Assembly: GCF_025628885.1 (NCBI RefSeq)
Contig: NZ_JAOTIF010000005.1
Location: 124,001 to 188,000, forward strand
DNA: 64,000 bases
Direction: 5' to 3'
Origin: Paraflavisolibacter caeni
Lineage (GTDB): Bacteria; Bacteroidota; Bacteroidia; Chitinophagales; Chitinophagaceae
Shown here: one piece after another, positions 39,911 to 62,418 of the stretch
Layout of the letters: each line of letters begins with the position of its first letter
How positions within the stretch are numbered: the stretch's first letter is position 1
Made by a program: the position numbers and the translations under genes
The notes under the pieces: model-generated
Databases searched by the model: none
What the model saw: only the letters and a program-made list of their open reading frames with translations
Told to the model about the DNA's origin: nothing

Positions 39911-39914
39911 TTTT

Positions 39915-46314: not shown

Positions 46315-48411
46315 TTATATCGATTCCAAGGGGATATTTACCATTAGTTGACAACCTGCGCCGGGAGTGCTTGCAAGGGAGAGTGTGCCTCCTAAATTTT
46401 CGGCACGGGAGCGCATGTTGGTGAGACCGATCCCTTCGCGCTTTTGCTTAGTGTCGAATCCTCTTCCATCATCAATTACCTGTAAACAGAGTACGTCCTC
46501 TATAAGGTCTATCACAATTTGAACATTATTCGCTTGGGCATGCCTGAGGATGTTGGTCAATTGCTCTTGTAATATGCGGTAGAGTGCAAGGTGTACTTCC
46601 TGATTTACTTCCAGGCCTTCAATGCCTATTGTTTCCAAACAGACTCTGATCTTGTTGGTGGCGGCAACTGTATCAACAAGGTCTTTGATTGACTCTTTTA
46701 ATTTTATACTCCCTAGCGAAGGGGCAGAAAGGCGCTTGGATAAACTGCGGATAGCGTCAATACATCCCTGAAGAAGATCGCTGGTTTTATCGAGCATCCC
46801 TTTTGTATCGCCAATCCCATCCCTGCACAATTCGGCATAGAGTTTTACCGTGGTGAGTACCTGATTGACGTTGTCGTGCAGCTCCCTGCTTACATGGGCC
46901 TGCTCTCTTTCCTGCGCCTCAATCACTGCTGCGGCGATCTTGCGCTGGCGCATCTCACGCTCTCGATCCAATTTTTCCTCGAGCAGTTTTCTTTCAGTGA
47001 CATCCGTCATGATAGAAAATATCTCCAGTTCTCCTTTTGCATCTACCACTGCCTGCCCGGTATTTTCCACCCAGAATTTTTCTTTGTTCTTTGTATAAGA
47101 AAGCAGTTCGACATGAAAAGGTTCGCCATTTCTTTTCATTTCCCGCAGGTGTTCAATTGACCGGGCGTCTGTTTCGGGGCCACTCAACAGTTCAGCAGGA
47201 TTTTTACCAAGAGCTTCCTGCAATGAAAAACCCGTTTTCTGGATGAAGGCATCATTCACCCACTTTATTCTTGCATCCTTGTCGCACAACATCACCAGGT
47301 TATCTGTTTGCCTGATGATCAGAGCGAGCCGTTTCATCTCCTCTTCCGCCCTTTTCCGCTTTGTGATATCAGTAGCAATCGAAAAGAATTGTTTCAAAGC
47401 TCCATTTTCATCAAAAACAGGATGGCAAGAAACGTCTGCCCAGTAGGTTTCTCCATTCTTTTTATAGTTGATCACTTCAATTTGGAATGACTCACGATTG
47501 GCCACCTTTTCCTGGACATATTGTATTAATGCCGGATCAGTTTCAGGGCCATCGAAAACATTTCCGATATATTGTCCCACCGCTTCATCGAAACTATATC
47601 CCGTTTTGCGGGTAAATGCATCATTCACCCATATAATCTTACGTTCAGGAGAAGAAATAGCCACGATGTTGTCGGTATGTTCTGCCACAAGAGAAAGTTT
47701 GCGCAATTCTTCCTCTTCTTTTTTCCGTGCAGATATATCACGAAAGAAAACAGATAGACCAGTATGGGAAGGATATGCATCTACTTCAAGCCAAACCTGG
47801 AAAGGTGGAAAGTAGCCATTGAAATGAACTGGCATCCTTGTCTGAACGGCCTTTTTGAATTGCTCTTCGTACACTGAACCGATCAACTCAGGAAAGCACT
47901 CCCAGTAATTTTTGTTCAGGTAGTGTTCTCGTTTGACGGAAACTATTTTTTCCACCCGGGGTGTTATGTGTGTAATATGCCAGTTTCTATCCAAAGCCAG
48001 GAACCCATCAGTGATGAGTTCAAGCATTTCATTCATTTCGAGATTGGGGCGAATGTACCTGCCAATACAAAATACCAATTGTTCCTGCGGATCCCACTGA
48101 GCTGACCATGAAACCGGCACTATGCATCCATTTTTGTGATAGTAGCGGTTCTCAAAGTTTGTTTCAAAAGCTCCCTGCATAATTTTCCGGGCAGTTTGTT
48201 TGGTCTTTTGATAATCATCCTCAACCAGGAATTCTGTGTAGCATTTACCAATGAGTTCTTCAGGATGATAGCCCCACAACTTTAAAGAAGCCCTGCTTAC
48301 TTCCACAAACCTGCCGCCCTGGTCCAAAACGCATAACACATCGGGTGACAGATCATACATCTTTTTCAGATGCGCAATTGAAGGATAGTGGATTCTCAGC
48401 AAACCGGCCAT
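46315..48411 (-). CDS. Multi-PAS sensor histidine kinase, HisKA_3 (NarL-partner) type
   Basis: The 698-residue protein has no membrane segment. Four PAS domains follow in order (about 10-130, 130-235, 245-365 and 370-490; two contain near-identical W-V-N-D-A-F segments). Then comes a HisKA_3 region with phosphoacceptor H-V-S-R-E-L-H-D-N-V-N-Q and a HATPase domain with D-D-G-R-G-F-D and G-I-G-L-T-N-M-R-S-R-A-E-N-L-G-G. Such kinases pass phosphate to NarL/LuxR-type regulators; none is encoded nearby, so it is an orphan kinase. The PAS domains probably sense a cytosolic ligand or redox state. Confidence 0.93.
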   Translation of the reverse strand: MAGLLRIHYPSIAHLKKMYDLSPDVLCVLDQGGRFVEVSRASLKLWGYHPEELIGKCYTEFLVEDDYQKTKQTARKIMQGAFETNFENRYYHKNGCIVPVSWSAQWDPQEQLVFCIGRYIRPNLEMNEMLELITDGFLALDRNWHITHITPRVEKIVSVKREHYLNKNYWECFPELIGSVYEEQFKKAVQTRMPVHFNGYFPPFQVWLEVDAYPSHTGLSVFFRDISARKKEEEELRKLSLVAEHTDNIVAISSPERKIIWVNDAFTRKTGYSFDEAVGQYIGNVFDGPETDPALIQYVQEKVANRESFQIEVINYKKNGETYWADVSCHPVFDENGALKQFFSIATDITKRKRAEEEMKRLALIIRQTDNLVMLCDKDARIKWVNDAFIQKTGFSLQEALGKNPAELLSGPETDARSIEHLREMKRNGEPFHVELLSYTKNKEKFWVENTGQAVVDAKGELEIFSIMTDVTERKLLEEKLDREREMRQRKIAAAVIEAQEREQAHVSRELHDNVNQVLTTVKLYAELCRDGIGDTKGMLDKTSDLLQGCIDAIRSLSKRLSAPSLGSIKLKESIKDLVDTVAATNKIRVCLETIGIEGLEVNQEVHLALYRILQEQLTNILRHAQANNVQIVIDLIEDVLCLQVIDDGRGFDTKQKREGIGLTNMRSRAENLGGTLSLASTPGAGCQLMVNIPLESI

Positions 48412-48948
48412 ATTAATCCCAAGAAATTACATGAGGATTCAAAATATAAATATAGGCCAGCAAGAACGTTGAAGGATACGGTTTTGAAGAAATTAGCATA
48501 AAAACAAGTATTTACACTTACTACAAACGAGGTAGATACCCGAAATCATCATTCGTCATGAATAAAGAATTGAAATAAATAACCATATGACTTATTTGAA
48601 AATAACTAGTCCCAGAGCCGGACAACAAGACGCTAATTATTGCAATTTTTTGCAGCACCACACAAGCTTGCCAAATATTATAAATTTTGGCAAGGCTATA
48701 ATAATCTATTATTCAGGTTAGTTTATTGGGGTTAATTTTACAAAGTAACAGGCAGTATTGTTTCAATCTTAGTATGCTACTTACTATTTTACTCTTCATT
48801 TCATTAACTGCCGCTGTCATTAATGCCTGAATCAAGCGCTTTTTCATTCCTGTACCTCTTGAAAATATAATCTAGTTCCAACTTCCCATTAAGGCTCTGA
48901 AAAACTGCAGTGAAAACTACATCTGGTATTGATTAAAACAACAGCATC
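48412..48948. other. Long regulatory region between histidine kinase and exported aspartase genes
   Basis: About 537 AT-rich bases without a credible gene. It contains one copy of the 24-bp palindrome (48669-48692), 257 bases before the aspartase ATG, so the transcript probably has a long leader. No terminator or RNA element is recognised. Confidence 0.6.
48669..48692. promoter_or_regulatory. 24-bp palindromic operator, copy A (before aspA-ansB)
   Basis: Arms TGCCAAA (48669-48675) and TTTTGGCA (48685-48692) around a TATTATAAA-like centre. An extra C-T / A-G pair extends the match on both flanks. It differs from the perfect copy at 60532 only at positions 8 and 16. Three such copies occur within 12 kb, each in a promoter region. 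Confidence 0.8.
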
Positions 48949-50442
48949 ATGAATTTAAAGCTAAAAACTACCGCGCTCAATATAGCAATAGCCCTGCTAT
49001 TTGGGAATTTCCTTCATGCACAGACCCGGACGGAAAAAGATCTATTAGGTGAAAAACAGATTCCCATCGATGCTTACTATGGTGTGCAAACAGCACGGGC
49101 GCTCGAAAACTTCCAGGTAAGCGGGGTAACCACCAAATTTTATCCAGATTATGTAAGGGCTTATGCTATGGTGAAACTGGCAGCAGCGCGTGCTAATACG
49201 GATGTTGGCAGGATGAGTAAAGAGAAACTTGCAGCTATTGAAAAAGCCTGCCAAGCTGTTATTGATGGTAAGTACCATGAACATTTTCTTGTTGACTTAT
49301 ACCAAGGTGGTGCGGGAACCTCAGCTAATATGAATGCGAATGAAGTACTGGCCAACATTGCCCTGGAAATGAGCGGTCATAAAAAAGGTGAATATCACGT
49401 TATTGAACCACATGACGACCTGAATATGGGGCAATCGACCAATGATGTGTATCCTACCACTATCCACGTAGCCTTACTGCTCCATAATGACAAGGTGGTA
49501 AAAGAAGCAAAGGCGCTGTCGGCTTCCTTCCATAAAAAAGGCGAAGAGTTCAGCAAGCTTCTTAAAATGGGACGTACCGAAGGCCAGGATGCTGTGCCCA
49601 TGACCCTGGGACAGGAATTCCATGCGTTTGGATATCAACTAGATGCAGCCATCGAAGGGCTAGTGAAATCGGAGGCATACTTGTATGAAGAGAACATGGG
49701 GGCCACAGCCATTGGTACTGGTATTACGGCTTCTCCTGGCTATGCTGAGAAATGTGCTGCACACCTGGCCAAAATCACCGGTAAGCCGATGATGCTCAGC
49801 AAAGACCTGGTAGCCGCCACCTCCAGTATGCAAGGCTTTGTCATGTATTCTTCAGCCCTAAAAAACCTTGCAGTAACCCTGTCTAAAATCTCGAGTGACC
49901 TAATATTCCTTGCTACCGGACCACGTACAGGTATTTTCGAAATCAACCTCCCTGCACTTCAGCCTGGTTCTTCCATCATGCCCGGAAAGGTGAATCCAGT
50001 GATGCCAGAGTTGATGAATGAAATTTGCTATAAGGCCATTGGTAACGATGCCACGGTTACGATTGCCTCACAAGACGGGCTCCTTCAACTGAATGCCTAT
50101 GAGCCAGTAGTTGCCGTTGCCATTATGGAATCGCAGGGGTTGTTTTTTAAAAGTATGCCATTGTTCCGAAAACAATGTATAGATGGGATTACTGCCAATG
50201 AGCAGGTGTTGAAGCATTACATGGAACGCAGTGTAGGCATTGTTACAGCATTGAACCCAATATTAGGCTATGATAAAACAACTGAACTGGCTAAAGAGGC
50301 TCTGGAAAAAGATAAAGGCATCCTGGAATTGATCCGGGAGAAAAAACTGCTGACTGAGCAGCAAATCAAAGAACTGATGGATCCAGTAAAAATGACAGCT
50401 CCAACAGGTCCAACAGGCCCGGCAAAAGCTAAACCATATTGA
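48949..50442 (+). CDS. aspA: Aspartate ammonia-lyase with export signal
   Basis: The 497-residue protein is a full aspartase: D-A-Y-Y-G-V-Q-T-A-R-A near the start, Q-S-T-N-D-V-Y-P-T in the middle and the superfamily signature G-S-S-I-M-P-G-K-V-N-P that carries the catalytic serine loop. It splits aspartate into fumarate and ammonia. Unlike usual aspartases (about 468 residues, cytosolic), it has an N-terminal signal peptide ending L-H-A-Q at about residue 24-25. The C-terminus ends in a short Pro/Gly/Thr-rich tail. It lies 21 bases before an exported asparaginase gene, so the pair would turn asparagine into fumarate outside the cytoplasm. A palindromic operator lies upstream. Confidence 0.93.
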   Translation: MNLKLKTTALNIAIALLFGNFLHAQTRTEKDLLGEKQIPIDAYYGVQTARALENFQVSGVTTKFYPDYVRAYAMVKLAAARANTDVGRMSKEKLAAIEKACQAVIDGKYHEHFLVDLYQGGAGTSANMNANEVLANIALEMSGHKKGEYHVIEPHDDLNMGQSTNDVYPTTIHVALLLHNDKVVKEAKALSASFHKKGEEFSKLLKMGRTEGQDAVPMTLGQEFHAFGYQLDAAIEGLVKSEAYLYEENMGATAIGTGITASPGYAEKCAAHLAKITGKPMMLSKDLVAATSSMQGFVMYSSALKNLAVTLSKISSDLIFLATGPRTGIFEINLPALQPGSSIMPGKVNPVMPELMNEICYKAIGNDATVTIASQDGLLQLNAYEPVVAVAIMESQGLFFKSMPLFRKQCIDGITANEQVLKHYMERSVGIVTALNPILGYDKTTELAKEALEKDKGILELIREKKLLTEQQIKELMDPVKMTAPTGPTGPAKAKPY

Positions 50443-50463
50443 TCTACCTTAAACTGAAATAAA

Positions 50464-51600
50464 ATGAAAAAGTTCAGTATTTCTTTGAGCACTTTCTGCA
50501 CCAGTGTATTGCTGTTCACCAACATTATGGCGCAGACACAATACAGAGAACTACCTGATGCAACACGAGTAGCACCTCCCATTGAAAAAACAGTAGCACC
50601 AGGTGATAAATACCTACCTAATATTGTTATACTCGCTACGGGGGGTACAATTGCTGGTTCTGCCGCCAGTTCCACCCAAGCTGGATACACATCAGGGCAG
50701 GTAACCATTGATGCCATGATTGCAGCAGTACCCGATGCCAAAAAGCTGGCTAACATCAAGGGTGAACAAATCTCCAATGTTGGCTCACAGGACATGAGCT
50801 TCGATATCATGTTAAAACTGGCCAACCGCATCAACGAACTTACCAAATCAAATGCAGCGGACGGTATTGTGATCACGCATGGCACTGATACTATGGAAGA
50901 AACCGCATACTTCCTGAACTTAGTGGTAAAAACTGATAAGCCTGTTGTACTGGTAGGCTCCATGAGGCCGAGCACTGCTTTGAGCGCCGATGGTCCTTTA
51001 AACCTGTATGATGCTATTGCCGTAGCCGCAGATCCGGAGGCAAAAGGCCATGGTGTTATGCTGGTGATGAATGACCAGATCCACTCAGCACAAAGCCTAG
51101 TCAAGGTGAGCACAACGGCTGTTCAAACTTTTATGTCACCGCTCCGGGGCATCATAGGCTCGTCAGCATATGGCCATAATGAGTTTTATCGCATTCCCCA
51201 TAAAATATATGGTGCTAATAGTGAGTTTTCCGTTGAGGGCGTAAAAACTCTACCTCGTGTTGATATCGTATATGCATGTGTCGACATGCCAGCTGATCTT
51301 ATTGATGCATCTGTTCAACGTGGAGCAAAGGGAATTGTTATTGCCGGGGTTGGTAATGGAAACATGACCAAGGCCGCCCTTGACGCCTGCCAACGTGCCG
51401 TCCAAAAAGGCGTGGTCGTAGTCAGGAGTTCAAGAGTAGCTACCGGTGATATAGGCCGTAATGTGGAGGTGGATGATAACAAAATAGGCACCATAGCTTC
51501 TTATGAGTTGAACCCACAAAAATCGAGAATACTGCTGTCTGTTGCCCTTCTGAAGCAACGTAAGCCAGAAGAAATTCAAAAACTGTTTATGGAATATTAA
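50464..51600 (+). CDS. ansB: Type II L-asparaginase, exported
   Basis: The 378-residue protein has a signal peptide ending near I-M-A-Q (residue 24) and the complete asparaginase active site: nucleophile Thr62 in L-A-T-G-G-T-I-A-G, Tyr75 on the flexible loop, Thr141-Asp142 in H-G-T-D-T-M-E-E-T and Lys214. It hydrolyses asparagine to aspartate and ammonia, probably in the periplasm. The aspartase gene immediately before it makes the product's next step available in the same compartment. The length is somewhat greater than that of E. coli AnsB because of about 25 extra residues between the signal and the first strand. Confidence 0.95.
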   Translation: MKKFSISLSTFCTSVLLFTNIMAQTQYRELPDATRVAPPIEKTVAPGDKYLPNIVILATGGTIAGSAASSTQAGYTSGQVTIDAMIAAVPDAKKLANIKGEQISNVGSQDMSFDIMLKLANRINELTKSNAADGIVITHGTDTMEETAYFLNLVVKTDKPVVLVGSMRPSTALSADGPLNLYDAIAVAADPEAKGHGVMLVMNDQIHSAQSLVKVSTTAVQTFMSPLRGIIGSSAYGHNEFYRIPHKIYGANSEFSVEGVKTLPRVDIVYACVDMPADLIDASVQRGAKGIVIAGVGNGNMTKAALDACQRAVQKGVVVVRSSRVATGDIGRNVEVDDNKIGTIASYELNPQKSRILLSVALLKQRKPEEIQKLFMEY

Positions 51601-51858
51601 TAGCCCCCGGAAGTATTAACTATACATTCTAGCACCCGGCTGCGCGTACGATATTGATCCCACTGGGTATGGCCATTTTTACTGGTCTTGAACAACAGGC
51701 AGTAATTGTTGCAGGCCTCCCAGCTTCTACGGCATTGTTCCTTCCAGTATCCACACCACCCAATGCTATCATATACAGCACCGGATTTTTGACGCAAAAG
51801 GATTTCAGGACAGGTGGCATTCTGATCGGGCCACGAAATTGATAAGTATTAAATTCTA

Positions 51859-53148
51859 ATGAAACCTAGTTTATTTTTTATAGCTTTTTTTGTGTTACTC
51901 AGCCATTTATCACCTTGCAGATTATACAGTCAAGACACACTAAAACAAACCCCTGATGGCACAACAGGATTATTTCTCACTATTCGTGAATGGGATTCAA
52001 TCAGGTTGAAAAGCCTGCCAATAAACGAATTTGAAGGCGCTCATTCCTCCTTTAGAATTGGACTTGGCTATATTCATGATTTCACTACATATGCTCAAAG
52101 TGAGGTATTCAAAGAGCAAATGGACTCATTAAAACTATCCTTAAGCCCAACCTTCAAACTAAGAGATTTCCGGATACTTGGTAGCGGGGTGCTTAAAACC
52201 AAAAGACCGATCTCCTGGAAATTTGCTTATATGTGGGATGGCGACAAGAAAATTTGGATGGCCCGTGAAACCGGACTTACTATTGGTGTACCTGAGTTAG
52301 CAGGACATATTTTTATCGGTCGGACAAAAGAAGGATATTCTATGATCAAGGTCATGAATGGTCATTCCGGAGTGACCAATGAAAGGCAAATGGCATTGGA
52401 TCCCATTCCTATTTTGGCAGATGGAATTAAATGGTTTGGTTACCTGCCAAAATCGAGAATATTCTGGAACCTTGGAGCTTTTAGTGATTTGACCTCTAAA
52501 GGCCAGGGATTCGCCACCTATGAATGGCAATTTGTGGCGCGGGTTGGGTGGATGCCGGTATATGATAAAGCAGACAATAAACTGATCCATATAGCGACCA
52601 ATCTTAGATATGGCAAGCCCCTGAATGGGAAATTTACAGTTAAATCGCGGCCTGAATCCAATCCAACTCCCCATCTTATTAACACAGGAGAATTTCAGAC
52701 TGATCATTCCAGTAGTATAGGAGCTGAAATCTTTTATAGTAACAACAGCCTGACATTAGGTTCAGAAGTTATGGTTCATAATTTCTATTCAGAAAAATTT
52801 GAAGACCATAAATTTTATGGCGGAGATTTCATAGCCAGCTATTTCTTTACAGGCGCTAAGCGACCTTATAACACTGTAGGGAGCATATATGGATTTGTAC
52901 CTGTGAAAAAATCTGTTTTTAAAGGAGGCCTGGGCGAAATAGAAGGCGTTCTACATGCTTCTACCTTCAACTTAAATGACGGGTCTATCCAGGGAGGTCA
53001 ATTTTGGCGTATTACGCCAATGGTCAACTGGTATCTTTCGAAGGCTATCCGATTGGAATTGATTTATGGCTATGGTGTGCTTGACCGATTTCAAAAAAAG
53101 GGAGCCGTTCATTTCTTCGAAAGCAGATTCCAATTAACTGCTATGTAA
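51859..53148 (+). CDS. Outer membrane porin, OprO/OprP-like
   Basis: The 429-residue protein has a signal peptide ending R-L-Y-S-Q (about residue 25) and then many amphipathic strands. The stretch F-R-I-G-L-G-Y-I-H-D-F, then S-L-S-P-T-F-K-L-R-D-F-R-I-L-G-S-G, W-K-F-A-Y-M-W-D-G and G-H-I-F-I-G-R-T-K-E-G-Y-S resembles phosphate-selective-type porins (OprP family). It ends in V-H-F-F-E-S-R-F-Q-L-T-A-M. It probably forms a passive channel for small anionic solutes. It lies 258 bases after the asparaginase gene, with no clear terminator between, so it may be part of the same regulon. Confidence 0.78.
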   Translation: MKPSLFFIAFFVLLSHLSPCRLYSQDTLKQTPDGTTGLFLTIREWDSIRLKSLPINEFEGAHSSFRIGLGYIHDFTTYAQSEVFKEQMDSLKLSLSPTFKLRDFRILGSGVLKTKRPISWKFAYMWDGDKKIWMARETGLTIGVPELAGHIFIGRTKEGYSMIKVMNGHSGVTNERQMALDPIPILADGIKWFGYLPKSRIFWNLGAFSDLTSKGQGFATYEWQFVARVGWMPVYDKADNKLIHIATNLRYGKPLNGKFTVKSRPESNPTPHLINTGEFQTDHSSSIGAEIFYSNNSLTLGSEVMVHNFYSEKFEDHKFYGGDFIASYFFTGAKRPYNTVGSIYGFVPVKKSVFKGGLGEIEGVLHASTFNLNDGSIQGGQFWRITPMVNWYLSKAIRLELIYGYGVLDRFQKKGAVHFFESRFQLTAM

Positions 53149-53617
53149 ATTAATTACATCTTCCTGAAGGGTTATTTGACATTCTTCAAACCATAAAATC
53201 AGTCATTAACGTCAAAAGAATGGCTTTATATCTCTTGTTACATCCTTTGGCAAGTATAAACGAATGCTGCCAAAATTTATAATTTTTGGCAATTGAAGGA
53301 CCTATTTTTTTTGTATCGCAGAGAGAAAGATAAAACTTGCACTTTGATTGTATCGGATTCACTCATGGCTTGGCTATAACTAGAACTGCGACCCTGCTGA
53401 TATCATTTTCTTACACCCCTACTTATTTTATTGTGGTAAACAGATCGAATGATTTATTAAAAGTTTACCTCAACCAGGCTTTATAAAATCGCAACCTCAA
53501 AAACAAATATGTATGGATTCAAACTTCACCGATATTGTATTCTATCCAAAATGGAATACACCGGCTGCATACACAACTGCTCCTTATCTTGAAAATGCTG
53601 CTCACAAACTTATCTCA
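53149..53617. other. Regulatory region before the second porin-glutaminase group
   Basis: About 469 AT-rich bases. It contains palindrome copy B (53268-53291) and, about 20 bases upstream of it, a half-site-like TTTGGCAAG. An open frame from 53513 runs into the porin gene but reads as non-family sequence before the ATG at 53618. Confidence 0.6.
53268..53291. promoter_or_regulatory. 24-bp palindromic operator, copy B (before the porin-glutaminase group)
   Basis: Arms TGCCAAAA (53268-53275) and TTTTTGGCA (53283-53291) around a TTTATAA centre. It differs from the perfect copy at 60532 at position 9 only. A T-rich stretch ending TTTG follows about 20 bases later and could be the -7 region. Confidence 0.8.
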
Positions 53618-54838
53618 ATGTTTAAAAATTTAAAAAGAGGTCTTATTACTTTATTGGTTTGTGCACTTGCCAGCAATGCAAATGCACAAGAAAGCGACAA
53701 CCAGAAGCAGGTTAGCATGGAGCTATATGGCTTTGCCATGATGGATGCCGGCCATAATTACAGACAAATTGATCCAGACTGGTTTGATGTGATGCGTGTG
53801 ACCAAATTACCAGCATCTAAAAACCAGTTCGGGGCTGACGGGTTTACTTATTTTAGTGTAAGGCAAACCCGTTTTGGGGTAAAAGGTTATTTACCAACTG
53901 CACTAGGAGAACTTAAAACCATATTCGAATTTGAAATGTTTGGAACTGGTGTTGATGCCGGGCAAACCACTATCCGTCTTCGCCATGCATACGGGGAACT
54001 GGGGAAGGTTGGTGCGGGTCAATACTGGAGTCCATTTATGGACATTGACGTATTTCCCAATTCGCTTGAATACTGGGGCCCAACTGGGATGGCGTTTTTC
54101 CGCAATGTGCAAATACGATATATGCCCATACAAGGTGATTCCCGTCTAACCTTTGCCCTTGAGCGTCCTGGCGCCAGTTCTGACCAGGGAGTTTATGCTG
54201 GTCGTATAGAGCTACAAGGTGTAAGGCCAAAGTTAGACCTTCCGGACTTTTCTGCTGAATACCGGCATGGCAGAAACTGGGGTTATGTAGAATTAGCGGG
54301 AATATTAAGGCGTCTGAAATGGGAAGATATTGATAACGTTGCTCCAGACCTTAGCGATACAAAGTTGGGATGGGGCTTAAACCTGAGTTCAGGACTTAAA
54401 TTCTTAGAGAAAGATTTGCTGCACCTGTCAGTGGTATACGGAGAAGGTATACAGAATTACATGAACGATGCTCCAGCGGATGTGGCTATTGAGAGAAAAG
54501 ACGGAAATGTAGTTGAAGGTGTGGCGCTCCCCGTTTTCGGTGCAGTTGCCTTTTACGACCATTACTGGAACAAAAAATTCAGCAGTACAATTGGCTATTC
54601 ATGGGTAGATATCGATAATTCAAATGGGCAATCTGCCAATGCTTTTAAAAGAGGAGATTATGGTTTGGTTAACCTTGTTTATTACCCGGTCGATAATGTA
54701 ATGGTCGGTGCGGAATTCCAGTACGGTAAACGTAAAAATCACAGTGATGGTTGGGAGGTTGAAGGGTATAAATCACAGATTTCCTTTAAATATAATTTCT
54801 CGCAAAAGTTCTACCGAGATACTAAAACTGCTCCATAA
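53618..54838 (+). CDS. DcaP-like trimeric outer membrane porin
   Basis: About 406 residues from the ATG at 53618, which gives a good signal peptide ending N-A-N-A-Q; the frame upstream to 53513 is open but not family-like. The mature start V-S-M-E-L-Y-G-F-A-M-M-D-A-G-H-N-Y and the segment F-S-V-R-Q-T-R-F-G-V-K-G-Y-L-P-T fit DcaP-like porins, which in other bacteria take up dicarboxylates or related anions. The end Q-I-S-F-K-Y-N-F-S-Q-K-F is a barrel-terminal strand. Uptake of dicarboxylic amino acids or release of fumarate would suit the neighbouring exported enzymes; that link is inference. Confidence 0.82.
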   Translation: MFKNLKRGLITLLVCALASNANAQESDNQKQVSMELYGFAMMDAGHNYRQIDPDWFDVMRVTKLPASKNQFGADGFTYFSVRQTRFGVKGYLPTALGELKTIFEFEMFGTGVDAGQTTIRLRHAYGELGKVGAGQYWSPFMDIDVFPNSLEYWGPTGMAFFRNVQIRYMPIQGDSRLTFALERPGASSDQGVYAGRIELQGVRPKLDLPDFSAEYRHGRNWGYVELAGILRRLKWEDIDNVAPDLSDTKLGWGLNLSSGLKFLEKDLLHLSVVYGEGIQNYMNDAPADVAIERKDGNVVEGVALPVFGAVAFYDHYWNKKFSSTIGYSWVDIDNSNGQSANAFKRGDYGLVNLVYYPVDNVMVGAEFQYGKRKNHSDGWEVEGYKSQISFKYNFSQKFYRDTKTAP

Positions 54839-54901
54839 ACACAAAGTCACTTACAGGTAAATCACTTATTCACAAGGATCATTCAATTCAAAAGAAATAT
54901 T

Positions 54902-55981
54902 ATGAAATACCTTTCTTTAAGTCATCGCCTTGCACTTGCATTTGTTTCATTTATACTGTTCTTTTCCGGTTTCTTTTTAGATATTCAAGCCCAGGAAAAG
55001 AAAAAAACACAAGGCAAGAAAACAGAAGGTGTTATGAGTGCCGACAAAGGAATGATTGAAGCGGCGTTAACTGAAGCTTATAACAAATTCAAGGATTTAC
55101 AAGAAGGTAAAAACGCCGACTATATTAAAGAGCTGGCGAACGTAGACCCCAACATTTTTGGCATTGCCCTCGTCACTACGGATGGACAGGTTTATACTCA
55201 AGGCGATATCACCTCCATGGTTTCTATCCAAAGCGTATCGAAAGTATTTACTATGGCCAAAGTCATTGAAGAGCAAGGCCCACAGGCTGTACGGGACAAG
55301 ATAGGCGTAGATGCAACCGGTATGCGTTTCAATTCTATTGTAGCTGTTGAATTACAAAAGGGAAAAGAAATCAATCCTTTGGTAAACCCGGGAGCTATCG
55401 CTGCCAGCAGCCTTATTAACGGCAGCGATTCTGCAGCCAAATGGAAAAGTATTCTTGATATTCATAGTGATTTTGCCGGCCGGCCGCTTACTGTAAACGA
55501 ACCCGTATATATCAGCGAAGCCGGTGACAATTTGCGTAACCAAGCCATTGCGCACTTACTGAAGGCATACAACCGTATGTATTTTGACCCTGTACAGGCA
55601 ACCGATATCTACACAAAACAGTGCGCCATCAACGTGAATGCAAAAGACCTGGCAACGATGGCAGCCACATTGGCCAACGGAGGTGTGAACCCGATTACAA
55701 AAAAGAAAGTGGTTAGCCCAGAAACAGTAATGTACACCCTACCGGTTATGGCTACAGCAGGCTTGTATGATGATTCCGGGCAATGGCTATACACTTCCGG
55801 CCTGCCCGCTAAAAGCGGTGTGGGAGGAGGTTTGTTAGCTGTTTGTCCCGGCAAGTTTGGAATAGCAGTTGTATCTCCACCATTGGATGCAGCAGGTAAC
55901 AGTGTAAAAGCACAAAAAGCCATCGCTTATGTAGTAGAAAAATTGAAGGCAGATCCCTATTTGATTCAGCCTAAATTATAA
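54902..55981 (+). CDS. glsA: Glutaminase A with export signal
   Basis: The 359-residue protein is a serine-dependent glutaminase: the catalytic S-x-x-K is Ser111-Lys114 in S-I-Q-S-V-S-K-V-F, followed by F-N-S-I-V-A-V-E, N-P-G-A-I, S-E-A-G-D-N-L-R-N, Y-T-K-Q-C-A-I-N-V and S-G-V-G-G-G. It converts glutamine to glutamate and ammonia. Most bacterial GlsA proteins are cytosolic and about 310 residues; this one has an extra N-terminal signal peptide ending near D-I-Q-A-Q (residue 31) and a lysine-rich linker. It lies 63 bases after the DcaP-like porin gene. With the exported asparaginase and aspartase it completes a set of ammonia-releasing enzymes in the envelope. Confidence 0.94.
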   Translation: MKYLSLSHRLALAFVSFILFFSGFFLDIQAQEKKKTQGKKTEGVMSADKGMIEAALTEAYNKFKDLQEGKNADYIKELANVDPNIFGIALVTTDGQVYTQGDITSMVSIQSVSKVFTMAKVIEEQGPQAVRDKIGVDATGMRFNSIVAVELQKGKEINPLVNPGAIAASSLINGSDSAAKWKSILDIHSDFAGRPLTVNEPVYISEAGDNLRNQAIAHLLKAYNRMYFDPVQATDIYTKQCAINVNAKDLATMAATLANGGVNPITKKKVVSPETVMYTLPVMATAGLYDDSGQWLYTSGLPAKSGVGGGLLAVCPGKFGIAVVSPPLDAAGNSVKAQKAIAYVVEKLKADPYLIQPKL

Positions 55982-56038
55982 TAGGAAGCTTACACCAATT
56001 AAAACAGAAAGGAATTTTTATTGAACAAAAAAAGGTTT

Positions 56039-57394
56039 ATGAAGACATGTAAACGTGTGTCCGCACATTTGTTTTTCACAATTGGTCTCACCCTATCAAT
56101 TTGCAGCCTTTTCGCCCAAGATGATGCGAAGTATGATGTATATGACACTACAACACTCAGTACCGAAAAATATCCCTATGAAATTAATACAGAAAAAAGC
56201 TTACCCGCTGAGACTGCTGGTGAATATACGCCTGGTAAAGGCTTCACTATTTATCAAAACAAATTGATTAGTCTTAATTTAAGTTTTTATGGACTGATCC
56301 GGTACACCAATCAACTACCAGCCACCCAATCTTTCACCGATCACCTGGGCCGGGAAAGGGCAATTGATACCCGCCATGATATTCAATGGCACCGTACATT
56401 CATCTGGGCATCAGGATACTTCTTTACCCAACGGCTACGCTATACAATAAGTGTTTGGGGACTTGGTTCAACCGGGCAGACCCTGTTATTCGGGAACATG
56501 CAATATCAATTTAATAAGGCTTTTAGACTTGGAGCGGGTATTGGCCCTAACCTTGGTGTCCGGTCTTTACAGGGGCCCTGGCCCTATTTTGTAGGAACCG
56601 ACAGGCAAATGGCTGAAGAAGCCTTACGCCCGGGCTTCACCGGCGGAATCTGGTTGAATGGACAGATCTTGCCCAAATTTCATTACTGGCTAATGCTTGG
56701 TAATAATTTGAGCCAGTTGGGTATTAACAATACGCAAATGACCAGACACCTGACTCCAAGCGCCAGCGTCTGGTGGATGCCAACCACTGGTGAGTTTGGC
56801 CCCCGCGGTGGCTACGGGGATTTTGAGTATCATACCAAACCGGCTACTCGGTTTGGCGCTTCAATCAACCATGCCCGTGAAGACCGCTTTAATGAGGTTT
56901 CAAATCCAAACCCGGCCGAAACCCAGATCCGACTATCCGACGGTGTCCTCTTCTTTGAAACTGGCGCCCTAGGTGATGATATTACTATACAAAGAACCAA
57001 CTATGATATAATGTCTTTTGATGCCGGCGTAAAATACAAAGGACTACATGTCCAGACAGAATTTATCCGGCGAAAGCTTTCAAATTTCCTGTCCGACAAA
57101 CCTGTACCACTTTCTAAAATTGTAGACAATTCATTTTACGTGACAGCATGTTACTCTTTAATAAAGAGGAAACTGGATGTGTACGGTGTGTATGGCAAGT
57201 TGATCGATGAATTTGACCGGAAGCCGTGGGAGGTAACAGGTGGGATGAGCTTTTTTCCCTCAGGGACCCGCAGTTTGCGCATCAACCTGCACGTCATCCG
57301 GATAGAAAAATCACCAGCAGGCTCAACCTTTGGATATTATATAGGCGGCCAGAGCGGAACAACAATTTCTCTTTCAACCGATTTACTTCTATAA
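56039..57394 (+). CDS. Outer membrane porin-like protein
   Basis: About 451 residues from the ATG at 56039 (a TTG six codons earlier is possible), with a signal peptide ending I-C-S-L-F-A-Q. The mature part has barrel strands such as L-I-S-L-N-L-S-F-Y-G-L-I-R-Y-T, R-L-R-Y-T-I-S-V-W-G-L-G and R-L-G-A-G-I-G-P-N-L-G-V-R-S. I read it as an outer membrane channel related to the DcaP/phosphate-porin group, with lower certainty than the two other porins nearby. It lies between the glutaminase and amidohydrolase genes with gaps of about 40-60 bases, consistent with one transcript. Confidence 0.72.
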   Translation: MKTCKRVSAHLFFTIGLTLSICSLFAQDDAKYDVYDTTTLSTEKYPYEINTEKSLPAETAGEYTPGKGFTIYQNKLISLNLSFYGLIRYTNQLPATQSFTDHLGRERAIDTRHDIQWHRTFIWASGYFFTQRLRYTISVWGLGSTGQTLLFGNMQYQFNKAFRLGAGIGPNLGVRSLQGPWPYFVGTDRQMAEEALRPGFTGGIWLNGQILPKFHYWLMLGNNLSQLGINNTQMTRHLTPSASVWWMPTTGEFGPRGGYGDFEYHTKPATRFGASINHAREDRFNEVSNPNPAETQIRLSDGVLFFETGALGDDITIQRTNYDIMSFDAGVKYKGLHVQTEFIRRKLSNFLSDKPVPLSKIVDNSFYVTACYSLIKRKLDVYGVYGKLIDEFDRKPWEVTGGMSFFPSGTRSLRINLHVIRIEKSPAGSTFGYYIGGQSGTTISLSTDLLL

Positions 57395-57437
57395 GGACCT
57401 CATGAAAAGATTTCTCAAATACTGAAACCATTCAAGT

Positions 57438-58598
57438 GTGAAACATTCAATGATCGAACGATATATACACACCATCAATTATAAGAATGTTTATAAGACA
57501 ATCCTAAGCATCCTATTGGTCATTATATTGACCCGTGCTGCTGAAAGCCAAGAAAGCAGCAAGAAACCCCCGCCACCAGCCAATGATTTCAATGACTCCC
57601 ACTTTCACCTGACCAATTACATACAAGAAGGTGCCGATATTCACAAGTATCTAGAGATCATGGGTAACCGAGTAGGACGTTCTACCTTATTTGGTATTCC
57701 CCTACAGCAAATGTGGTCTTACCAGAATTCCGGTACTTACGGGCCAACCTATTATTTACAAAGTGATGCCCCCCTTTATTATTATTCATTCACCGATGCT
57801 TATATAGCCAGCGTATACAATTCACTTTCTCCTACAGAAAAGCAACGCTTCGATCCCATGATCACGGGTTTTAACCCGGCTGATATGTATGCAAAGGCGC
57901 ACATCAAAAGGGTGTTACTTACATTTCCAGGTGTATTTTCGGGTATTGGTGAATTCAGTATTCATAAAGAATTTGTTTCCGCTAAAGTTGCCGGAGAAGC
58001 AGCCAGCCTTACCAACCCTGCGCTCGATAGCATACTTGATTTTGCAGGGGAAGTTGGCCTGGCAGTAATCTTACATAATGACATGGATATGCCTTTTGCC
58101 AAAGCCGGGGCTGAACCTGTATACCTTGCTCAAATGAAGGACTTGTTGAAGAGACACCCTAAAACAACAATTATCTGGGCACATGTGGGCTTAGGCCGTG
58201 TAGTGCACCCGGTGCAGCAATCCGGTTCTGAGCCAATCAACAACCGCAACCCCAGGCAATTGCAGATTGTAGAAGATATACTTACGGATCCGGCCTTGAA
58301 GCATGTATATTTTGATATATCCTGGGATGAAGTAGCTAAATATGTTATCGCCTCGCAACAGTCCTTGCAAAATACCATTACTATTATCAATCGTTTCCCA
58401 GACCGCTTCCTGTTTGGAACAGATGTGGTAGCGCCAACCAGCCCGGAAATGTATTATGCGGTGTTCAACATGTACGAGCCGCTCTGGAAGGGGTTAACTC
58501 CTGAAGCAAGCGAGAAAGTACGGAAAAGAAATTATGAAAGGATCTTCAACGAAGCCCGGCAAAGAGTTAGAGAATGGGAGAAAGCCCATTTGAAATGA
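57438..58598 (+). CDS. Exported metal-dependent amidohydrolase (amidohydrolase-2 family)
   Basis: The 386-residue protein has a membrane/signal segment around residues 20-38 and then a TIM-barrel hydrolase of the amidohydrolase-2 (ACMSD-like) family. Metal-site motifs in order: D-S-H-F-H-L, a central V-I-L-H-N-D-M-D, T-I-I-W-A-H-V-G-L-G-R and F-G-T-D-V. The start is GTG at 57438; an in-frame ATG four codons later also works. Family members hydrolyse or decarboxylate small carboxylic acids. The substrate is unknown, but its place among exported glutaminase and asparaginase suggests an amide or a carboxylate derived from amino acids. It overlaps the next gene by ATGA. Confidence 0.85.
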   Translation: MKHSMIERYIHTINYKNVYKTILSILLVIILTRAAESQESSKKPPPPANDFNDSHFHLTNYIQEGADIHKYLEIMGNRVGRSTLFGIPLQQMWSYQNSGTYGPTYYLQSDAPLYYYSFTDAYIASVYNSLSPTEKQRFDPMITGFNPADMYAKAHIKRVLLTFPGVFSGIGEFSIHKEFVSAKVAGEAASLTNPALDSILDFAGEVGLAVILHNDMDMPFAKAGAEPVYLAQMKDLLKRHPKTTIIWAHVGLGRVVHPVQQSGSEPINNRNPRQLQIVEDILTDPALKHVYFDISWDEVAKYVIASQQSLQNTITIINRFPDRFLFGTDVVAPTSPEMYYAVFNMYEPLWKGLTPEASEKVRKRNYERIFNEARQRVREWEKAHLK

Positions 58599-59413
58599 TA
58601 AAAAAGATATGGCCTAACATGAATATAACATCGTTTATCAATTTTATGCCATCATGGATGTTATTCATCCTGATTATAATCGTAGGTATGCTTATTGCCG
58701 AAGCCGGTGCCTACATTGCCGGAAAAAGATTACAGAAAGGAGAAAAAGAGCCGGATACTCCTGTTAACTCCGCCTTAGGAGCCATGCTGGCCTTATTAGG
58801 ATTTATGCTGGGCTTTACTTTCTCTATTACAGCGAACAGGTTTGCCGAACGAAGGGAATTGGTTATTCGACAGGCCAACGCTATTGGTACCTGTTATCTG
58901 CGTACAAGTATGATCCCGGAAAGACAGAAATCAGAAGTCAGGAAACTTTTCCGGGAATACGTTGACAATTTACTCCAAATCCAGAAGACTGAAAATGTGA
59001 ATGTGCCAAAGAGCATATCCAGAATGAACGATATTCACTTATTGATCTGGAACCAGACAGCCTCCTTAGCAAAGGAAGATATGGACTCAGAATTACGGTC
59101 GCTTTTTACCAGTTCGGTAAATGAAGTCATAGATATAGCTTCTGAAAGAGAAACAATTGCCTTACTTGTAAGAATTCCATCTATCCTGTGGATTTCCCTT
59201 ATCGCACTTTTCATTATGAGTATGTTTCTCGTGGGTTACCAAATCGCTTCATTTGACATACGCAGGATATATAGTTTACCTTTACTGATAGGGGCTGTTG
59301 CTATGGTCCTTGTATTGATTGCCGAAATGGACTCCAGTGAAAAAAAAGGCTTCCGGATCAGTCAGAAACCGCTGGAGAATGTCCGGGAAATGTTGCAAAC
59401 AAATATTCCCTAA
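58595..59413 (+). CDS. Integral membrane protein, DUF4239/bestrophin-like
   Basis: About 272 residues. The ATG at 58595 overlaps the amidohydrolase stop by 4 bases (ATGA); another ATG at 58619 is possible. Four membrane segments are seen: about residues 18-40, 60-80 and a pair near the end (about 208-252). The segment between helices 2 and 3 contains F-A-E-R-R-E-L-V-I-R-Q-A-N-A-I-G-T-C-Y-L-R-T, typical of DUF4239 proteins, which resemble bestrophin channels. It could be an anion channel. The translational coupling suggests that its role is tied to the amidohydrolase. Confidence 0.8.
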   Translation: MIKKIWPNMNITSFINFMPSWMLFILIIIVGMLIAEAGAYIAGKRLQKGEKEPDTPVNSALGAMLALLGFMLGFTFSITANRFAERRELVIRQANAIGTCYLRTSMIPERQKSEVRKLFREYVDNLLQIQKTENVNVPKSISRMNDIHLLIWNQTASLAKEDMDSELRSLFTSSVNEVIDIASERETIALLVRIPSILWISLIALFIMSMFLVGYQIASFDIRRIYSLPLLIGAVAMVLVLIAEMDSSEKKGFRISQKPLENVREMLQTNIP

Positions 59414-59447
59414 TTAAACATTTGTTCAGAACTATCTTAGGTTATCA

Positions 59448-59699
59448 TTATTTAAATAACTTCCAGCGTTTACGGTCCTTTTGCTGTTTCGCATCCTTAT
59501 TACATCCACCAAAGCAAGCAAACTGAGGTGTAAACAACATGATGCCAAACTCAAACCCCGCACCAAGGTTACCGTTAAATTCCTGTCCATGGGTTACCTT
59601 ACCATGAGGCTTTGACAGCCAACTATCTGAATTAAACTGTTGAGCACTGGTCTGGCTAATAGCTAAGACCAGTATATAAACCAGCCAGATCCGAAACAT
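59448..59699 (-). pseudogene. Short exported protein, probably an internally deleted remnant
   Basis: The 83-residue product has a signal peptide (ending I-S-Q-T-S-A-Q), then Q-F-N-S-D-S-W-L-S-K-P-H-G-K-V-T and directly G-Q-E-F-N-G-N-L-G-A-G-F-E-F-G-I-M-L-F-T-P-Q-F-A-C-F-G-G-C. To my memory the first block is the N-terminus and the second the C-terminus of a much longer exported Bacteroidota beta-barrel protein, so this looks like an in-frame internal deletion. It ends with a lysine-rich tail. If intact and meaningful, it is a tiny exported protein of unknown role. It lies 13 bases after the OmpA lipoprotein gene on the same strand. Confidence 0.5.
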
Positions 59700-59712
59700 A
59701 AGCAGTTCATTG

Positions 59713-60447
59713 TTATTGAGCAGTTTCCCACACTCGCTTTAGATCGGGATTCAAAATAATCTCTGTCCGCCTGTTTTTGGCCTTTCCTTCTGCTGTTGCA
59801 TTATCGGCAACAGGAGCATATTTTCCTTGCCCTGCAGCAACAAGGCGTTCCGGGCTTACACTATAATCATCTCTCAGGGCACGTACAACACCATTGGCTC
59901 TTTCCGTACTTAAACTCATGTTATCTGTATTAATGCCTTTTTTAAAAGGCACATCATCAGTATGCCCAACCACAATCACCTGCAGGTTAGGATATTGGTT
60001 TAAGGCTGAAGCCAGTCCCTCCAATGCTTTTTTGCCATTTTCAGTCAACTTAGAACTACCGCTCGCATACATGAGATTATCCTGCATGTTTACATAGACA
60101 CGACCGTCTTTTCCATAAACATCAACACCCTTTTCTTTGAAATCAGCCTCGGCAGCTTCCAATGCCTTTTGGACTTCCATCATTTTGTCCCTAGCCTCCG
60201 CCAAGGCATTACGGTATTCTTCATACTTCTTTTGCTTTGCCTCACAATCTGTCTTGTAACTGCTATATTCTGAGCTCAATGACTTATTAGTGGCCGTAAG
60301 TTCGTTTACTTGTTGTTGCAGTGTACTGATTTGAGCATTTAACCCATCTACAGTGGACATTGCACTTTTGTATTTCTTACTGGACACGCAAGAAGAGATC
60401 ATAATAGTTGCTATCAATAAAACCGGCAGCAAGGATTTGTTCAACAT
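59713..60447 (-). CDS. OmpA family lipoprotein with coiled coil
   Basis: About 244 residues from the ATG at 60447, which gives a lipoprotein signal (I-M-I-S-S-C, Cys near residue 19); the open frame before it up to 60537 overlaps the operator and is not family-like. After C-V-S-S-K-K-Y-K comes a coiled coil (about 25-110) and a C-terminal OmpA/MotB domain with V-V-G-H-T-D-D-V-P-F-K-K-G, L-S-T-E-R-A-N and K-N-R-R-T-E-I-I-L, which bind peptidoglycan. It should tie the outer membrane to the wall. It is divergent from a close paralogue at 60728 and they share palindrome copy C. Confidence 0.9.
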   Translation of the reverse strand: MLNKSLLPVLLIATIMISSCVSSKKYKSAMSTVDGLNAQISTLQQQVNELTATNKSLSSEYSSYKTDCEAKQKKYEEYRNALAEARDKMMEVQKALEAAEADFKEKGVDVYGKDGRVYVNMQDNLMYASGSSKLTENGKKALEGLASALNQYPNLQVIVVGHTDDVPFKKGINTDNMSLSTERANGVVRALRDDYSVSPERLVAAGQGKYAPVADNATAEGKAKNRRTEIILNPDLKRVWETAQ

Positions 60448-60531
60448 TGTATTTGGTTTTAGTATGGAAAAATTGTGTTTACAAATTTTATTCTTTTCAC
60501 CGCTTCTATAATAAAACTCAGGCGCTTGAAT

Positions 60532-60555
60532 TGCCAAAAATTATAATTTTTGGCA
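60532..60555. promoter_or_regulatory. 24-bp palindromic operator, copy C (perfect; between divergent OmpA genes)
   Basis: Arms TGCCAAAAATTA (60532-60543) and TAATTTTTGGCA (60544-60555) are exact complements. It is 85 bases before the minus-strand start and 172 before the plus-strand start. Twenty-one of the 24 positions are shared by copies A, B and C. Confidence 0.85.
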
Positions 60556-60727
60556 TATAAAGGGCCTGGCGATTTTGAAGTATGGCCAGGTTGACAAAAC
60601 TTGCATATCCTAATATCCCATTGCAAAGTGATACACTTTGCCTTATGTGGTGATACCGTTATCAATGCTCTATTGATTGCTTTTCCAGATCCGGGTATAT
60701 TATTTCATCAATTCAATTATCACAACT

Positions 60728-61582
60728 ATGAATTTTCCAACTTTCATTTTCGTGGTTGTTCTCTCCTTTGCGGGGAGCGCTTGCGTAAGCAGTAAAAAGT
60801 ATAAAAGCCTTTCCAAGGAATATGAAACATTAAACAGCCGTCAAACCTCGTTACAGACAGAGCTAACCCAATGCAATACAGACAAAAGCAAGCTGATGGG
60901 ACAGCAGCAAGCTCTTAGTGAGCAGGTTACCTTTCTGAAAGAAAACAATACACAGGCATTATCACAATTGGAAAACATGTCTGTGATTTCAAAACAGCAG
61001 GCGGAAAGTATACAAAAGTCCATGGAAAATATTGGGGTGAAGGATGCCTACATCCAAACTCTGCAGCAACAAATGGCTAAAAAAGATTCACTCAATATGG
61101 CGTTGGTGATGAACCTGAAAGGGGCTATTGGTAATTTGGCAGATGAGGATATCAACATTAAAGTAGATAAAGGAGTGGTTATTATTGACATTTCTGATAA
61201 GATGTTGTTCAAGAGCGGCAGCTATGATATAACCGATAGAGCAAAGGAAGTATTGAGCAAGGTAGCAAAGGTGCTCAAAAACCAACCTGATATTCAGTTT
61301 ATGGTAGAAGGACATACAGACAATGTTCCTTATAAGGGCAATAAAATACTGACTGACAATTGGGACCTGAGTGTCAAAAGAGCCACCACTGTTGTCAGGT
61401 TGCTACAAAATGAATACGGCATGGATCCTAAAAAAATGCTGGCAGCCGGGCGCAGCGAGTACAACCCAGTAAGTGAAAATACATCAGCAGAGGGAAAGGC
61501 TCTTAATCGCCGGACAAGGATTGTGATCTTACCAGAACTAGACCAGTTCTTCAAATTACTGGAACCACAACAAAAAACATAA
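60728..61582 (+). CDS. OmpA family lipoprotein with coiled coil, paralogue
   Basis: About 284 residues from the ATG at 60728, giving a lipoprotein signal with F-A-G-S-A-C and then C-V-S-S-K-K-Y-K, the same eight residues that follow in the divergent paralogue. A long coiled coil (about 30-130, with Q-T-E-L-T-Q-C-N-T-D-K-S-K-L) leads to an OmpA/MotB domain with V-E-G-H-T-D-N-V-P-Y-K-G, L-S-V-K-R-A-T and L-N-R-R-T-R-I-V-I. It binds peptidoglycan from the outer membrane. The frame upstream of 60728 is open but would place residues in front of the signal sequence. Confidence 0.9.
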   Translation: MNFPTFIFVVVLSFAGSACVSSKKYKSLSKEYETLNSRQTSLQTELTQCNTDKSKLMGQQQALSEQVTFLKENNTQALSQLENMSVISKQQAESIQKSMENIGVKDAYIQTLQQQMAKKDSLNMALVMNLKGAIGNLADEDINIKVDKGVVIIDISDKMLFKSGSYDITDRAKEVLSKVAKVLKNQPDIQFMVEGHTDNVPYKGNKILTDNWDLSVKRATTVVRLLQNEYGMDPKKMLAAGRSEYNPVSENTSAEGKALNRRTRIVILPELDQFFKLLEPQQKT

Positions 61583-61647: not shown

Positions 61648-62418
61648 ATGAAAAATATTCACTGTTTATTTCTAATGACCGTTGCTTTTTGCATTGCAAC
61701 ACTTCGTCTACAGGGTCAAGCTACACAAGAAACAACAGGTAAAGCCTATAAGAATGTCATCCGGTATGATTTGTCAGGAGCCTTACTTTATGGACCAGAC
61801 CGACATATCGTTTTTGGATATGAACGCGTACTTAAGAATAATCAAAGTATTTCTATTAATGTTGGTAAAGCGTCCCTCTTCACAGCTGACAGAAATGATA
61901 TTAAAACCGATTCCTTTAGTTTTAATGATGATTTAAAAAATAACGGTTTTAAAATAAATGCTGATTACCGGTTTTACCTGAAAAAAGAAAATAAATATCA
62001 GGCGCCTCATGGCGTTTTTATAGGTCCCTATGCTGCTTTTGCCCAATTCAAAAGAGACAACCAATGGGCTTATACTGATCCTAATTCACAAGGCAAACTT
62101 GTGCAAACAAACTTAACAATGAACATATTTACAGTAGGTGGAGAAATGGGCTACCAGTTTATTTTGGGAAAGAGAGTTGCTCTTGATTTTGTTTTGATCG
62201 GACCTGGATTTGGCTACTATAAAATCAATGCAAAAATAAAAAGTGACCTTAGCCAAGCACAAAAAGAAGAATTACGTGGGGCAATTAAAGACCTTATTAC
62301 TGAGAAATTTCCCGGGCTAAATAATATACTGGCTAATAAGAATTTTGATAATGAAGGAGACATCCGTACATGGAATTTTGGCTACCGTTATATAATTCAC
62401 ATAGGCTATGTATTTTAA
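61648..62418 (+). CDS. Outer membrane beta-barrel-like protein
   Basis: The 256-residue protein has a signal peptide (ending near R-L-Q-G-Q-A) and barrel strands: V-I-R-Y-D-L-S-G-A-L-L-Y-G, H-I-V-F-G-Y-E-R-V-L, S-I-S-I-N-V-G-K-A-S-L-F, F-K-I-N-A-D-Y-R-F-Y-L and a final N-F-G-Y-R-Y-I-I-H-I-G-Y-V-F ending in Phe. This is a common Bacteroidota barrel of unknown function (DUF3575-like in general shape). It lies 65 bases after the OmpA lipoprotein gene and is probably in the same transcript. Confidence 0.72.
   Translation: MKNIHCLFLMTVAFCIATLRLQGQATQETTGKAYKNVIRYDLSGALLYGPDRHIVFGYERVLKNNQSISINVGKASLFTADRNDIKTDSFSFNDDLKNNGFKINADYRFYLKKENKYQAPHGVFIGPYAAFAQFKRDNQWAYTDPNSQGKLVQTNLTMNIFTVGGEMGYQFILGKRVALDFVLIGPGFGYYKINAKIKSDLSQAQKEELRGAIKDLITEKFPGLNNILANKNFDNEGDIRTWNFGYRYIIHIGYVF

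Follow-up and report, generated by a model that had tools for sequence, protein, structure and literature searches.

A rare palindrome as the probable operator of a small regulon in Paraflavisolibacter caeni, with a stand-alone AraC-type protein as its most likely reader

A 24-bp palindrome marks three intergenic regions in a 64,000-nucleotide stretch of Paraflavisolibacter caeni DNA (contig NZ_JAOTIF010000005.1, positions 124,001 to 188,000; this whole stretch is called the window, and its numbering is used throughout). The palindrome is a real operator of a small, lineage-restricted regulon. Its most likely reader is a so far unstudied AraC-type protein encoded at 62625-63065, probably acting as an activator, a statement that, taken as a whole, we hold with slightly better than even confidence. 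The operator reading itself, which formed the core of the original prediction, is supported by the small number of copies and their proximity to genes, by the preferred spacing between site and promoter-like box and by a tie to one regulator subfamily.

The palindrome in the window, the genome and related genomes

The sites in the window, none of them assigned to a strand, are as follows:

48669..48692, unstranded: palindrome copy 1, between a PAS/HisKA_3 kinase gene (-) and aspA-ansB (+)
53268..53291, unstranded: palindrome copy 2, ahead of the DcaP porin-glutaminase group
60532..60555, unstranded: palindrome copy 3, perfect, between divergent OmpA genes
62492..62515, unstranded: degenerate copy, 2 mismatches to TGCCAANNNTTATAANNNTTGGCA, ahead of the AraC-type gene starting at 62625

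The three 24-mers sit where they had been reported, are identical at 21 of 24 positions with only positions 8, 9 and 16 varying, and copy 3 is, as described, a perfect palindrome. All three are indeed intergenic, before aspA-ansB (48949), before the DcaP group (53618) and between the OmpA genes (60447/60728), the likely gene starts 53618, 60447 and 60728 being judged by eye; copy 1 also precedes the divergent kinase gene (46315-48411), absent from the earlier account. The degenerate copy at 62492 mentioned there exists as well. Scanning with TGCCAAAANTTATAANTTTTGGCA at up to 3 mismatches returned 3 window matches, against a mean of 0.00 in 100 dinucleotide shuffles. The looser arm pattern TGCCAAA-N9-TTTGGCA at 3 mismatches gave 10 window matches against 7.8 by chance and is not enriched, so that the significance rests on the full 24-mer.

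In the organism's own genome (G000; 7,014,184 bases) the scan with TGCCAAAANTTATAANTTTTGGCA added one copy at 2 mismatches (C1:839432) and one at 3 (C56:115657), far from the hundreds of copies that had been named as evidence against an operator. The copy at C1:839432 lies 66 bp before the start of the longest open reading frame (ORF) of a weakly AsmA-like gene (33 bits, cut-off 412). At up to 2 mismatches, TGCCAAAANTTATAANTTTTGGCA was found in none of 17 other genomes of the same genus and once each in 3 of 393 other family genomes (G080, G177 and G273); the G080 site is inside a gene and was discarded as chance. A contig-database scan with TGCCAANNNTTATAANNNTTGGCA returned nine stretches, two of them from Paraflavitalea (sp. 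CAU 1676 and P. pollutisoli), a genus within Chitinophagaceae.

A half-site tied to one AraC subfamily

Both Paraflavitalea palindromes lie directly 3' of the stop codon of an AraC gene, and the encoded proteins are 42-45% identical over 107-112 aa to that of the window:

62625..63065, plus strand: 146-aa stand-alone AraC-type DNA-binding protein, the proposed reader, with a GTG start; Pfam HTH_18 at 3.4e-10; structure model matching AraC-type domains

This protein has the double helix-turn-helix domain, about 100 aa long, that marks the AraC/XylS family (HTH_18 at 40.5 bits against a cut-off of 33.6), and its gene lies 2 kb from copy 3. The model (mean predicted local distance difference test score 78; residues 1-23 below 50) matches the AraC-type DNA-binding domains 3oou, 6swi, 3mkl and 3lsg, with a best E of 2.3e-4. 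Among the 58 of 61 listed window ORFs covered by the Pfam scan, two clear DNA-binding regulators were found, this one and an NtrC-type one, and no TetR, LacI or Crp/Fnr regulator.

Since the Paraflavitalea link had been found from the motif side, the test was turned round to start from the protein. A protein search of 78 relatives (E<=1e-25) gave matches in G000, namely the window gene and a pair on contig C26, and in G017. Profile A3, partly built from loci carrying the half-site described next, gave matches at E<=1e-35 in G000, G144, G160 and G177 among 195 family genomes (best 19 candidates per genome at most), and in G017 and G273 only among 12 further genomes in which all candidates were scored.

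Splitting the palindrome at its self-complementary centre yields the half-site TGCCAANNWTTATAA, which is present in exact form at six loci spanning four other Chitinophagaceae genomes: at the AraC pairs of G017 and G144, and at AraC1 and AraC2 of the two Paraflavitalea genomes (G177 and G273). Five of these loci were shuffled, G273 AraC1 being left out, and the exact half-site appeared in 6, 1, 0, 0 and 0 of 2000 shuffles each for L044, L056, L059, L084 and L054, respectively; the first three loci came from protein searches, L084 entered via the half-site search with the protein profile finding the same gene (L112), and L054 was ascertained by motif. The G144 assembly (75% complete) holds a single exact half-site, directly 3' of its AraC pair. 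Homologues at E<=4e-50 all have the half-site, exact or with 1 mismatch; it is absent, even when 1 mismatch is allowed, from all ten listed at E>=3e-42, both the five short ones (L057, L065, L115-L117) and the five long ones (L062-L064, L113, L114). Present at homologue loci and made of two boxes one helical turn apart, TGCCAANNWTTATAA is a candidate for the bipartite kind of site that AraC/XylS proteins bind.

Full palindromes with at most 1 mismatch number 4 in G000, 1 in G017, 2 in G273 and at least 1 in G177, that is, they occur in four of the five genomes with such an AraC gene among the matches listed (the fifth is G144), and in none of the nine genomes without it that have a complete listing (11 without it were searched). 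Three palindrome-free genomes lacking the AraC gene share a genus label with Paraflavitalea, and G229 has one palindrome with 2 mismatches.

Exact half-sites number 9 in G000 (6 places), 7 in G017, 1 in G144, 6 in G177 (5 places) and 4 in G273 (3 places). Places inside ORFs were counted as background and make up 1 of 6 in G000, 3 of 7 in G017, 2 of 5 in G177 and 1 of 3 in G273; three genomes without the AraC gene have 1 exact half-site each, all inside ORFs (3 of 3). Because relatives without the AraC gene reach 7, the same as G017 (76 genomes, 92 exact half-sites, mean 1.2), the count per genome is no proof and was dropped as evidence. The half-sites at G017 L083 (between two 3' ends), G017 L093 and G177 L071 are intergenic. 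When the AraC intergenic regions of C26 and G017 were aligned, their half-sites did not fall into register.

The AraC pairs of C26 (L049) and of G017 C1 (L050) stand in a conserved cluster of tandem short AraC genes, a divergent membrane-bound AraC gene and an outer-membrane protein (OMP) gene. The C26 cluster adds FGE-like and, by eye, sulfatase-like genes, and an FGE-like gene also follows Paraflavitalea AraC1.

Genes preceded by the site

Beyond the window, a weakly AsmA-like gene and a fasciclin gene have sites in G000, and so do genes of the Omp85, DUF4136/OMP and FGE-like kinds in related genomes. In G017 the palindrome (C1:142518) is flanked by a DUF481 gene on one side and by genes for a DUF4136 lipoprotein and an OMP on the other; AraC1 of G273 has genes 65% and 50% identical to the latter two beside it. 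G017 also has a site with 2 mismatches ahead of an Omp85 gene, and an Omp85-like gene is a neighbour of Paraflavitalea AraC2. The predicted regulon reaches beyond amidases and porins, and the sites at Omp85, DUF4136-lipoprotein and OMP genes make it envelope-centred.

The other observation that had been named as evidence against an operator, a lack of conserved sites before orthologous genes, was made in part. Of the five glutaminase loci found in relatives, four (G016, G025, G042 and G043) have no site in the fetched 19-20 kb, and G017 has, by eye, a degenerate one with the same spacing to the promoter boxes; the orthologous amidase promoters of these five genomes thus carry at most a degenerate site. 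In these four genomes the regulator goes missing along with the site, for none of them gave a homologue to the window AraC at E<=1e-25.

Promoter layout

Published accounts of Bacteroidota sigma-A promoters describe a TAnnTTTG box near -7, spanning -12 to -5, and a TTTG near -33, the latter for B. fragilis but not found in F. johnsoniae (PMC7366714, PMC9723704). When TAnnTTTG was scored at every offset in 14 site-promoter pairs, offsets 41-43 past the site ranked first of 147, with a mean of 4.29/6 against 2.68 and a score of at least 5/6 in 6 of the 14 pairs against 0.46 on average; none of 20000 random-offset draws attained the observed mean, and all 21 directed pairs also put these offsets first. 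This would put the palindrome centre near -64, with predicted transcription starts near 53344 and 60608, and by analogy with MarA class I promoters the position suggests activation. The predicted elements are:

53296..53303, plus strand: AAGGACCT element between operator and -33 element, copy 2 side
53309..53313, plus strand: TTTTG, predicted -33 element of the copy 2 promoter
53332..53341, plus strand: AAAACTTGCA, predicted weak -7 element of the copy 2 promoter
60560..60567, plus strand: AAGGGCCT element of the copy 3 (+) promoter
60573..60577, plus strand: TTTTG, predicted -33 element of the OmpA2 promoter
60596..60605, plus strand: AAAACTTGCA, predicted weak -7 element of the OmpA2 promoter
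60520..60527, minus strand: AAGCGCCT element on the OmpA1 side of copy 3
60482..60489, minus strand: AAAATTTG, predicted -7 element of the OmpA1 promoter, offset 43
48733..48740, plus strand: TAATTTTA, predicted -7 element of the aspA promoter, offset 41
62557..62564, plus strand: TTATTTTG, predicted -7 element of the AraC gene, offset 42

Copies 2 and 3(+), at which TTTTG is found, have in common the arrangement palindrome-N4-AAGGNCCT-N5-TTTTG-N18-AAAACTTGCA, with 17 bases from site to TTTTG and 18 from there to AAAACTTGCA; the core after the palindrome has no other occurrence in the genome within 3 mismatches. In the G017 glutaminase promoter, TTTTG-N19-AAAACTTGCA follows the degenerate site at the same distance. 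The window -7 boxes match 4-5 of 6 bases, those of copies 2 and 3(+) being poor (4/6), and the perfect palindrome between the OmpA genes has -7-like boxes on both sides. On three promoter sides (53296-53303, 60560-60567 and 60520-60527(-)) the palindrome is followed, at constant spacing, by a AAGNNCCT element, which could be the site of a second protein.

Proposed mechanism and competing explanations

In the mechanism proposed here, the palindrome would serve a small regulon as its operator, with the stand-alone AraC-type protein of 62625-63065, and perhaps also the C26 paralogue pair, as reader. The recognition unit would be TGCCAANNWTTATAA, its two boxes spaced by one helical turn as double helix-turn-helix (HTH) domains of the AraC type require, and in the palindromes two such units would face each other, both using the self-complementary TTATAA. 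Sitting some 64 bp ahead of the predicted transcription start and immediately before the -33 TTTG and a poor -7 box TAnnTTTG, the protein would probably activate in a MarA-like, class I promoter mode. Rarity, palindromy, the AraC-subfamily link and the preferred spacing were computed; binding, activation, autoregulation and which AraC copy acts at which site we infer. A more ambitious version is unlikely to hold in its entirety: a symmetric operator of two overlapping inverted sites with TTATAA in common would be usable in either orientation by a stand-alone AraC-type protein, one site activating two divergent promoters, asymmetric half-sites serving the regulator's own gene, and the regulon extending over the envelope (OmpA, porins, Omp85, AsmA-like proteins and exported amidases).

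Several points weigh against an AraC-type reader and activator. As monomers, AraC-type proteins mostly bind sites that are asymmetric, and two of them could not both fully occupy the overlapping halves. The window AraC gene and the C26 pair have half-sites with 1 mismatch and none exact, five lower-scoring short homologues (G160, G177 C18 and three in G273) have none at up to 1 mismatch, and half-site counts do not separate genomes with and without the AraC gene. The profile search of the 195-genome set scored at most 19 candidates per genome. The Paraflavitalea palindrome is positioned 3' of the AraC gene, about 390-450 bp before the next gene, and a 1-mismatch palindrome in G273 (C11:166725; L118:3726) stands among genes that look conjugation-related by eye, with no evident envelope gene. 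As for the promoters, the 14 pairs and their directions were picked after several had been viewed, and no good box exists at the C26 pair, on the kinase side of copy 1 or on the DUF502 side. The window also encodes a second DNA-binding regulator, of NtrC type.

It is somewhat unlikely that another, dimeric regulator reads the palindrome, with the AraC genes as mere members of the regulon. Perfect 24-bp palindromes are typical targets of dimeric regulators, and AraC genes that were targets would equally have sites beside them. Candidates would be the NtrC-type protein of 33882-35255, which has receiver, AAA and Fis-type HTH domains and is encoded together with its kinase; a LuxR-type protein partnering the PAS/HisKA_3 kinase, whose gene borders the intergenic region of copy 1; or some TetR, LacI or Crp/Fnr protein from elsewhere in the genome. 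However, the NtrC-type gene is 13 kb from copy 1, beside efflux-type genes and with no palindrome copy there. An NtrC-type reader acting on sigma-54 promoters was rejected, as the 250 bp to either side of each of the four window sites contain no GG-N10-GC element at up to 3 mismatches to the sigma-54 consensus. Sigma-54 activators carry GAFTGA, in place of which this AAA domain reads GSFTDA, and the regulator may therefore not use sigma-54 at all, judging by this motif. Site and AraC gene are, moreover, co-present or co-missing within two genera, and half-sites alone are found at AraC loci, which also argues against a dimeric reader.

A reader from the AraC family that represses is decidedly unlikely. 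The spacing merely puts the site upstream of the promoter, where looping or upstream repression could operate, but none of the three sites overlaps a predicted -33 or -7 element, and at copies 2 and 3(+) the -7 box is a poor one. Reading by the membrane-bound AraC-type regulator divergent from the AraC pairs of C26 and G017 is very improbable: it has a related HTH_18 domain and a half-site in its intergenic region in both genomes, yet it does not adjoin the window AraC gene or Paraflavitalea AraC1, and the five long homologues in G177 and G273 have no half-site at up to 1 mismatch. Reading the palindromes as RNA hairpins, as terminators or as a dispersed repeat is hardly credible. Three of the nine contig-database matches (L024, L026 and L032) look terminator-like by eye, but copy 3 lies between two divergent starts and there is no U-run at a fixed distance, and a terminator was rejected for the window copies. 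A repeat family or mobile element was likewise rejected, with only four near copies in 7.0 Mb and upstream flanks that differ; none in shuffles and one more copy at up to 2 mismatches genome-wide indicate a rare regulon operator instead.

Comparison with known systems

MarA, SoxS and Rob are small double-HTH proteins without a ligand domain. The window protein would resemble them in this, in its TGYYAAA box, in the class I position and in the control of porins. A published account describes MarA as binding as a monomer to an asymmetric box, with a marbox consensus ending in TGYYAAA and class I marboxes about 50-70 bp upstream, and as controlling porin expression (PMC6900184). The arm TGCCAAA would fit that TGYYAAA end. 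In contrast to the asymmetric, monomer-bound MarA site, the best sites here are 24-bp palindromes, and compared with the marbox GCAHWWWWTGYYAAA the site is symmetric, with the GCA box, by eye, not conserved before TGYYAAA. The proteins differ too, with 12% identity over the MarA-DNA structure 1bl0, an extra N-terminal helix in the window protein and Bacteroidota promoters; among sequence hits of the 62625-63065 protein at E<=0.001 there is no MarA, SoxS or Rob entry, and the likeness to them is limited to distant structural matches.

Response regulators of the YesN/AraT type are among the best structural matches (6swi, 3lsg), but the window protein has no receiver domain. RhaS/RhaR and ToxT are AraC-family proteins able to act on inverted half-sites; their half-sites are separate, whereas here the halves overlap in TTATAA and there is no ligand domain. 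A literature search, covering titles and abstract openings among the matches listed and no subscription papers, found no description of the motif or regulon. The wiring of this regulon is new; the kind of control is ordinary.

Neighbouring genes

The genes around the sites are:

33882-35255, minus strand: NtrC-type response regulator with receiver, AAA and Fis-type HTH domains; adjoining kinase, the pair at 32600-35255
46315..48411, minus strand: PAS-HisKA_3 histidine kinase, divergent from copy 1
48949..50442, plus strand: aspartate ammonia-lyase (aspA), N-terminus signal-peptide-like by eye
50464..51600, plus strand: type II asparaginase (ansB), N-terminus signal-peptide-like by eye
51859..53148, plus strand: Porin_O_P family porin
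53618..54838, plus strand: DcaP porin; ORF opens at 53513, signal-peptide-like start at 53618 by eye
54902..55981, plus strand: glutaminase A, N-terminus signal-peptide-like by eye
56021..57394, plus strand: 457-aa protein without a Pfam match, conserved in the cluster
57438..58598, plus strand: Amidohydro_2 hydrolase
58574..59413, plus strand: bestrophin-like membrane protein
59713..60447, minus strand: OmpA1, OmpA-family, lipoprotein-like start
60728..61582, plus strand: OmpA2, OmpA-family, lipoprotein-like start
61648..62418, plus strand: DUF3575 protein, likely an outer-membrane beta-barrel

Aspartase, type II asparaginase and glutaminase (48949-51600 and 54902-55981), with their signal-peptide-like N-termini, form an exported set leading from Gln/Asn through Glu/Asp to fumarate. 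A close glutaminase was found in 6 of 98 genomes searched, the own genome included, and in G042 and G043 the genes for glutaminase, asparaginase, aspartase and the two porins have stayed together. The minus-strand region 32600-41162, in which the NtrC-type regulator and a PAS/HAMP kinase stand beside MacB-type, ABC, OEP and HlyD genes, is likely a regulated efflux locus. A TonB-dependent receptor at 41288-43560 (-) appears to be split into a Plug ORF and a beta-barrel ORF that overlap by 4 bases in different frames, through a frameshift or an assembly error.

Significance

To our knowledge, little is known of the operators of Bacteroidota AraC-type proteins, though these genomes hold many such genes. 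In the present case site, regulator and promoter geometry can be linked from the genome text, giving a short list of testable promoters. The link also joins a set of outer-membrane proteins to an exported cluster degrading Gln, Asn and Asp, which suggests that the make-up of the porin set is switched jointly with amino-acid use in the periplasm.

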